Positions 57,529 to 58,427 of a stretch of 64,000 bases of DNA are shown here, piece by piece. The translations under genes were made by a program, and so were the position numbers. Position 1 is the first letter of the stretch, and each line of letters opens with the position of its first letter. Source of the DNA: Thermoplasmatales archaeon BRNA1 (GTDB lineage Archaea > Thermoplasmatota > Thermoplasmata > Methanomassiliicoccales > Methanomethylophilaceae); NCBI GenBank assembly GCA_000350305.1, contig CP002916.1, positions 868,001 to 932,000 on the forward strand. Reading direction: 5' to 3'. The notes under the pieces are model-generated. The model saw only the letters and a list, made by a program, of their open reading frames with translations. It did not search any database and was not told the origin of the DNA.

Positions 57529-57966
57529 ATGGATGCCGAAGAAGCAGCGAAATACGTAAGCGAGGACGCCAGACCCTACATGGACAACATCGTCGGGATG
57601 CTGAACGCCCCGTTCTTCGCCCTCAACGGCATGAAACCGGTGAGCATCTCCCTCGACAGGGTGGAGATATCCATGGACGTCAAGCCCCGTGACCGCAACT
57701 CCAACGGTTTCTGGCACGGCGGGACCACCTACGGGGTTCTTGACCATGCCTTCGCAATCCTCACTAACATCCGCGGCCATGCCGTAGGCCAGAACTCCAA
57801 CCTCAATTTCTACCGTCCCGGCAGGGGAGACACCGTCAGGGCGGTCGCCACCGTCGTTAATGAGAGCGGCTCCCTCGCATACTGCTGCCTGTAGGCCTAT
57901 GACGGGGAGAAGCTCATCGCATCCGGGGTCTCCACCGCGTTCAAGCTGAAGGAGGTGGCGAGATGA
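57529..57966 (+). CDS. PaaI-type hotdog thioesterase with in-frame TAG (Pyl candidate)
   Basis: A 145-residue hotdog-fold thioesterase read through TAG at 57892-57894 (codon 122). Before it: MDAEEAAKYVSEDA, NGFWHGGTTYGVLDHAFAI (the catalytic HGG loop) and RAVATVVNESGSLAYCCL. After it: AYDGEKLIASGVSTAFKL, the conserved last beta strand, then KEVAR and TGA. The TGA overlaps the next start (ATGA at 57963), as expected if the read-through product is the real one. ATG at 57529 is 26 bases past a TTTATC block. Either a pyrrolysine-containing protein or a recent nonsense mutation. Confidence 0.75.
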
Positions 57967-58427
57967 GCAGGTACTGCCCCAACTGCGGAGCGGTGGTGCC
58001 GGAGAACTCCCTCAACTGCCCCCAATGCTACACGGACATCCCCCGCGGAGGCTACGTCAACGAACGCGACCACATGCGCGAACACAGGACCAAGGAGGAC
58101 TTCGTCAGTCAGATCGAGAAGAGGCACAAGAAGAGAAGTCTGGCACTTCTGCTGGCGATCATCCCGGCGTTCTTCGGGATCCTCGGCCTCGGTCAGATCT
58201 ACCTCGACAGAAGGTACGCGAGAGGCTACATGTACCTGGCCACGGGACTGCTGTTCTTCCTGTCTGCCGTAGGCCTGTTCGTGCTCGGAAGCGGTCACGA
58301 ATGGGCGACCGTAATCCTGTTCATCCCGATCTTCATCTCGATGTTCCTGTACTTCCTCACGGCCGTGGCATCCGTAGCGGAGACCTGGCTGGGTTCCTTC
58401 AGGGTCTTCGGGCTGAGGTACAGCTGA
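57963..58427 (+). CDS. Zinc-ribbon membrane protein (TM2-like)
   Basis: 154 residues. N-terminal double-CxxC ribbon (YCPNCGAVV, NCPQCYTD), a basic linker, then hydrophobic helices from about residue 60 (LALLLAIIPAFFGILGLGQI) with the TM2-type GLGQIYLDRRYARGY turn, and two more helices. Function unknown. Overlaps the thioesterase stop by ATGA. Confidence 0.8.
   Translation: MSRYCPNCGAVVPENSLNCPQCYTDIPRGGYVNERDHMREHRTKEDFVSQIEKRHKKRSLALLLAIIPAFFGILGLGQIYLDRRYARGYMYLATGLLFFLSAVGLFVLGSGHEWATVILFIPIFISMFLYFLTAVASVAETWLGSFRVFGLRYS

Follow-up and report, generated by a model that had tools for sequence, protein, structure and literature searches.

The in-frame TAG at codon 122 of a PaaI-type hotdog thioesterase gene in Thermoplasmatales archaeon BRNA1 is predicted to be decoded as pyrrolysine (Pyl), giving one 145-residue protein from a gene that acquired its TAG by a recent, near-neutral substitution, a reading to which a probability of about 0.86 was assigned. 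In the proposed mechanism, tRNA-Pyl(CUA) would read the UAG as Pyl and the single product would end at the following in-frame TGA. Codon 122 would have undergone a recent lineage-specific change of a single base, most likely from GAG (Glu) or else from AAG (Lys), at a sheet-strand position that is variable, usually charged and probably turned to the surface, and the change would have been tolerated because tRNA-Pyl already suppresses UAG, drifting close to neutrality with no need for a catalytic role of Pyl. Efficient decoding, the identity of the inserted residue and near-neutrality are three points that we infer; the same near-neutral mechanism was argued for Candidatus Methanomethylophilus alvus by Borrel et al. 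(PMC4153887). Pyl at residue 122, which was proposed in the initial annotation, is the best reading, as a prediction, because the genome contains pylTSBCD and because the C-terminal strand is universal among the aligned orthologues.

The gene is located in the window, the whole stretch of 64,000 nucleotides that was analysed (G000:C1:868001-932000). The source genome is a single contig of 1,461,105 bases, is 99.7% complete, and has methanogens of the rumen and gut as its nearest named relatives, Candidatus Methanomethylophilus sp. 1R26 among them. The TAG is in frame with the ATG at 57529 and is followed by AYDGEKLIASGVSTAFKLKEVAR up to the TGA, which confirmed both that the TAG lies within a hotdog thioesterase frame and that this frame continues to a TGA overlapping the next start, as had been stated from the first reading of the DNA. 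The product matched PF03061 (4HBT) with 34.5 bits (cut-off 20.6; E 2.6e-8) and TIGR00369 with 40.6 bits (cut-off 36.6). The same downstream neighbour, for which zinc-ribbon Pfam matches were weak and below cut-off, was present at at least 19 of the 30 orthologue loci compared, and the gene pair recurs in relatives, often with the identical ATGA overlap.

Table 1. Positions of the thioesterase features, of other TAG-bearing genes and of pylT
Feature	Position	Strand	Remarks
PaaI-type hotdog (4HBT) thioesterase gene	57529..57966	+	145 codons with TAG counted as Pyl; from frame, Pfam, TIGR00369 and AlphaFold
In-frame TAG, codon 122, probable pyrrolysine	57892..57894	+	sense codon in 29/29 family orthologues
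Coding part 3' of TAG	57895..57963	+	covers the last beta strand (128-139) in full and the end of strand 116-125; from orthologue conservation, dN comparable to the 5' part and DSSP of the model
TGA, genuine gene end	57964..57966	+	overlaps next start, ATGA 57963-57966
Downstream gene, zinc-ribbon membrane protein, probable operon	57963..58427	+	ORF; neighbour kept in relatives
Second in-frame TAG of the window	37458..37460	+	large lineage-specific surface-like protein, frame 37107-38864
Nucleotide-kinase-like gene (AAA_18)	L008:12421-12954, genome C1:42421-42954	+	terminal TAG
DNA primase large subunit PriL	L008:13601-14641, genome C1:43601-44641	-	TAG codon 245
Phosphoglycerate-mutase-type gene	L019:6198-6947	+	TAG codon 109, Pfam match across
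HAD hydrolase	L016:15429-16055	+	candidate, TAG codon 27, Pfam match across
GNAT acetyltransferase	L007:5679-6110	+	candidate, TAG codon 96, Pfam match across
PHP protein	L015:16277-17239	-	candidate, matches on either side of TAG
AMP-ligase	L016:8630-9865	-	candidate, TAG codon 19, 5' of domain, less certain
pylT, anticodon CTA	G000:C1:991571-991643	-	directly upstream of pylS, read by eye

A thioesterase match was found in 61 of the 81 genomes searched, and an internal stop was present in the source genome only (1/61). Among 29 aligned orthologues from the family, the column of the TAG was occupied by Lys (10), Arg (9), Glu (8), Gln (1) and Tyr (1), and GAG, which is one base from TAG, was found there in five of ten same-genus sequences. 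The 23 residues 3' of the TAG aligned to the C-termini of all 29 orthologues, in each of which the same C-terminal strand continues, and the idea that this strand might be dispensable, raised in the initial annotation as a way in which the Pyl reading could fail, did not hold. The two nearest sequences were 65-70% identical over these residues, the same level as in the part before the TAG; for the nearest one (G008), identity was 67% before and 70% after the TAG, and dN was 0.29 versus 0.22. In most pairs dN after the TAG was of the same order as, or lower than, dN before it, as a rough estimate from only 23 codons and with dS near saturation in many pairs. Codon bias was 0.66 bits per codon after the TAG versus 0.40 before it (GC3, 0.87 versus 0.80), a score that is reached by 6% of open stretches from all frames and is not decisive by itself; it is the homology that decides. 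Judged from these alignments, the continuation of the reading frame past the TAG is not a product of chance. In-frame homology past the TAG, as expected of a Pyl-containing protein, was thus found, and conservation of the TAG among orthologues, as expected of a protein with functional Pyl, was not (1 of the 61 genomes with a match).

In the AlphaFold model of the thioesterase (pLDDT 89, TAG modelled as Lys), DSSP placed residue 122 in strand 116-125, with a further strand, 128-139, following it, so that a stop at the TAG would delete the last beta strand. Foldseek matched the model to PaaI of T. thermophilus (1J1Y, TMt 0.89), with which it shares the fold and an N..HGG..D-type active-site region, although the score of the thioesterase against the PaaI equivalog TIGR02286 was 47 bits, under the cut-off of 118.9. 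Residues 117, 119 and 121 of the strand are hydrophobic and relatives carry charged residues at 122, an alternation which suggests that residue 122 faces outward at the surface. Pyl is a long lysine derivative, and at an outward-facing position it would be a plausible stand-in for Glu, Lys or Arg.

The restriction of the TAG to the source genome would also agree with a young pseudogene or nonsense allele in which the TAG is the first lesion, as would the failure to detect a thioesterase copy in several same-genus or same-family genomes, some of them incomplete, among the 81 searched, from which it appears that the enzyme may not be strictly essential. Directly 5' of the TAG the sequence has diverged somewhat (SGSLAYCCL versus SRSLYHVYV), and early relaxation could be one reading of this. 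However, the gene contains no lesion other than the TAG, its motifs NSNGFWHGG and VLDHAF are unbroken, coding bias and constraint extend beyond the TAG, and a TAG need not inactivate a gene in a Pyl-decoding cell, all of which make a decaying gene improbable.

A search of the genome recovered the full set of pylTSBCD, and the alternative mentioned in the initial annotation, that the genome might have no pyl genes, was thereby removed. With NCBIfam models, PylS scored 263 bits (cut-off 178), PylB 427 bits (348), PylC 340 bits (248) and PylD 192 bits (150). The tRNA-Pyl, which is of compact form, was not reported by ARAGORN or Rfam in the source genome. The genes pylT, pylS, pylC and pylD are clustered together and pylB lies approximately 0.55 Mb off, the same split layout as in Ca. 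M. alvus, where pylB is approximately 0.7 Mb distant (PMC3941956). Two mtmB genes adjoin the pyl cluster, each with an in-frame TAG at codon 202, and in both products the Pfam match to PF05369 spans the TAG (E below 1e-240). The source genome thus has pylS, pylB, pylC and pylD, a pylT with a CTA anticodon and TAG-bearing mtmB genes, as a Pyl-decoding organism should.

TAG usage was surveyed in 20 stretches and the window, 464 kb in total or about 32% of the genome, with a gene caller that is a simple codon-bias script, and gene counts are therefore approximate. With TAG called as sense, the 427 genes ended in 396 TGA and 31 TAA codons. The earlier observation that every other stop checked by eye in the window is TGA or TAA was nearly right and is extended by these counts; gene calling also gave one other TAG in frame there. 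In a first call with three stops, a strongly coding extension followed six of nine TAG-ended genes versus 21 of 351 genes ending in TGA or TAA, and in many of these 21 the extension looks like a following gene that happens to share the frame. TAG was present inside at least eight protein-coding genes of the sample, and a Pfam match extended across it in MtmB (two genes), PriL, the phosphoglycerate mutase type, the HAD hydrolase and the GNAT acetyltransferase. A base-calling or assembly error, with GAG or AAG as the true codon, has hardly any likelihood, since several comparable in-frame TAGs occur in this sample and the genome is a nearly complete single contig, even though a single base separates the TAG from the GAG of relatives.

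The PriL gene is single-copy, its TAG is present in the source genome only, and relatives free of the TAG are approximately 70% identical across this site; if PriL is essential, UAG decoding would be needed for replication. The PriL gene of a same-genus draft genome (G001:C2:29524-30552) shows a TGA in frame, which may be an assembly error. For the phosphoglycerate mutase type, one TAG was also observed inside the copies of three more distant relatives (G063, G057 and G014). The surface-like protein of the window has only weak relatives and a low coding signal after its TAG, which makes Pyl uncertain at that site. Early TAGs in L010:2803-3756, L010:19216-19443 and L012:15978-16211 were set aside as upstream extensions or weak ORFs.

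The TAG that ends the nucleotide-kinase-like gene lies within ATGGTTCTAGAC, where the gene overlaps with the start of a CDP-alcohol phosphatidyltransferase-like gene (named from its sequence). Each of the 21 genomes searched from the order has a TAG in the kinase gene, and its place is identical in the five copies that were inspected closely, those of the source genome and four relatives. The kinase gene was rejected as a Pyl gene or a frameshift, as what follows its TAG belongs to the neighbouring gene, read in a different frame, and the TAG itself is a stop within the overlap. Since this gene ends at a conserved TAG, TAG is mostly a sense codon in the source genome, yet not exclusively. The overlap appears to have locked this terminal TAG in place, in a lineage where TAG stops are otherwise avoided. 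The release factor aRF1 retains the NIKS and YxCxxxF motifs, and termination at UAG is therefore probably still possible and may compete with decoding. No common PYLIS-like stem was apparent when the 100 bases after the TAG were folded at ten sites, without a shuffle test, and a stem of this type is not required (PMC9499178).

The canonical aRF1 motifs and the capacity of TAG to terminate one gene in the order are what would be expected if the thioesterase TAG were a true stop and the protein a shortened one of 121 residues, but such a protein would lack the last beta strand common to all orthologues, in-frame conservation persists past the TAG, and the genome encodes a UAG-decoding tRNA, so that termination as the normal outcome is also quite unlikely. 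Competition between Pyl insertion and the release factor has been proposed (PMC9499178), and together with the recurrence of the ATGA arrangement in relatives this would allow a conditional switch, in which the supply of Pyl during growth on methylamines sets the dose of the thioesterase and of the ATGA-coupled downstream membrane protein. Such a switch was judged even less likely, because the TAG is unique to the source genome and lacks the conservation expected of regulation, because PriL also has a TAG and would be harmed by a conditional supply, and because low usage of TAG stops has been taken to suggest constitutive decoding (PMC4153887).

Decoding of the thioesterase TAG as Pyl would have close parallels in Ca. 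M. alvus (PMC4153887) and ISO4-H5 (PMC5011839), which belong to the same order and have the same kind of pyl system, in-frame TAGs in ordinary enzymes with sense codons in the homologues, and very few TAG stops. For Ca. M. alvus, predictions gave 16 Pyl proteins other than the methyltransferases (PMC4153887); for ISO4-H5, 46 TAG genes have been reported (PMC5011839). No thioesterase is among the 20 proteins in Table 7 of Borrel et al. (PMC4153887). The TAG described here is also distinctive in being just 23 codons from the gene end, so that a conventional annotation would do no more than truncate the gene. The tRNA-His guanylyltransferase of Methanosarcina, another protein from another lineage, is likewise a non-methyltransferase enzyme with Pyl, which is ascribed to neutral evolution in the secondary accounts (Heinemann 2009, via PMC4153887 and PMC3639795). 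In the methylamine methyltransferases MtmB, MtbB and MttB, an in-frame TAG is likewise decoded as Pyl, as in the two mtmB genes of the source genome, but there Pyl is catalytic and conserved, whereas the thioesterase TAG is at a variable position and in one genome only. Kivenson et al. (Science, 2025) are reported to have backed the reading of TAG as sense in archaea with proteomic data, a 'Pyl code' in which TAG is reportedly mostly sense, as it is here, although in the source genome at least one TAG looks terminal.

The novelty implied in the initial annotation did not stand, since reports of Pyl in house-keeping-type proteins of the order go back to 2014 (PMC4153887, PMC5011839), and the thioesterase would be a further case among the Pyl-containing non-methyltransferase proteins already reported for the order. 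Standard gene calling would trim the thioesterase by 24 residues and yet label it complete, and late TAGs of this kind are therefore easily missed. The primase TAG and the conserved terminal TAG of the kinase gene are more useful leads than the thioesterase itself. The thioesterase adds one clear lineage-specific step from a sense codon to TAG at a variable residue, and supports the view that, given tRNA-Pyl, TAG can drift into genes of ordinary function. Taken with the TAG in PriL, it points to a possible requirement of Pyl for growth as such. More speculatively, Pyl might be a metabolic gate that is essential for growth regardless of substrate, because the thioesterase, the DNA primase large subunit and the phosphoglycerate mutase would all need UAG decoding, and TAG might be near full reassignment save for the locked terminal site.
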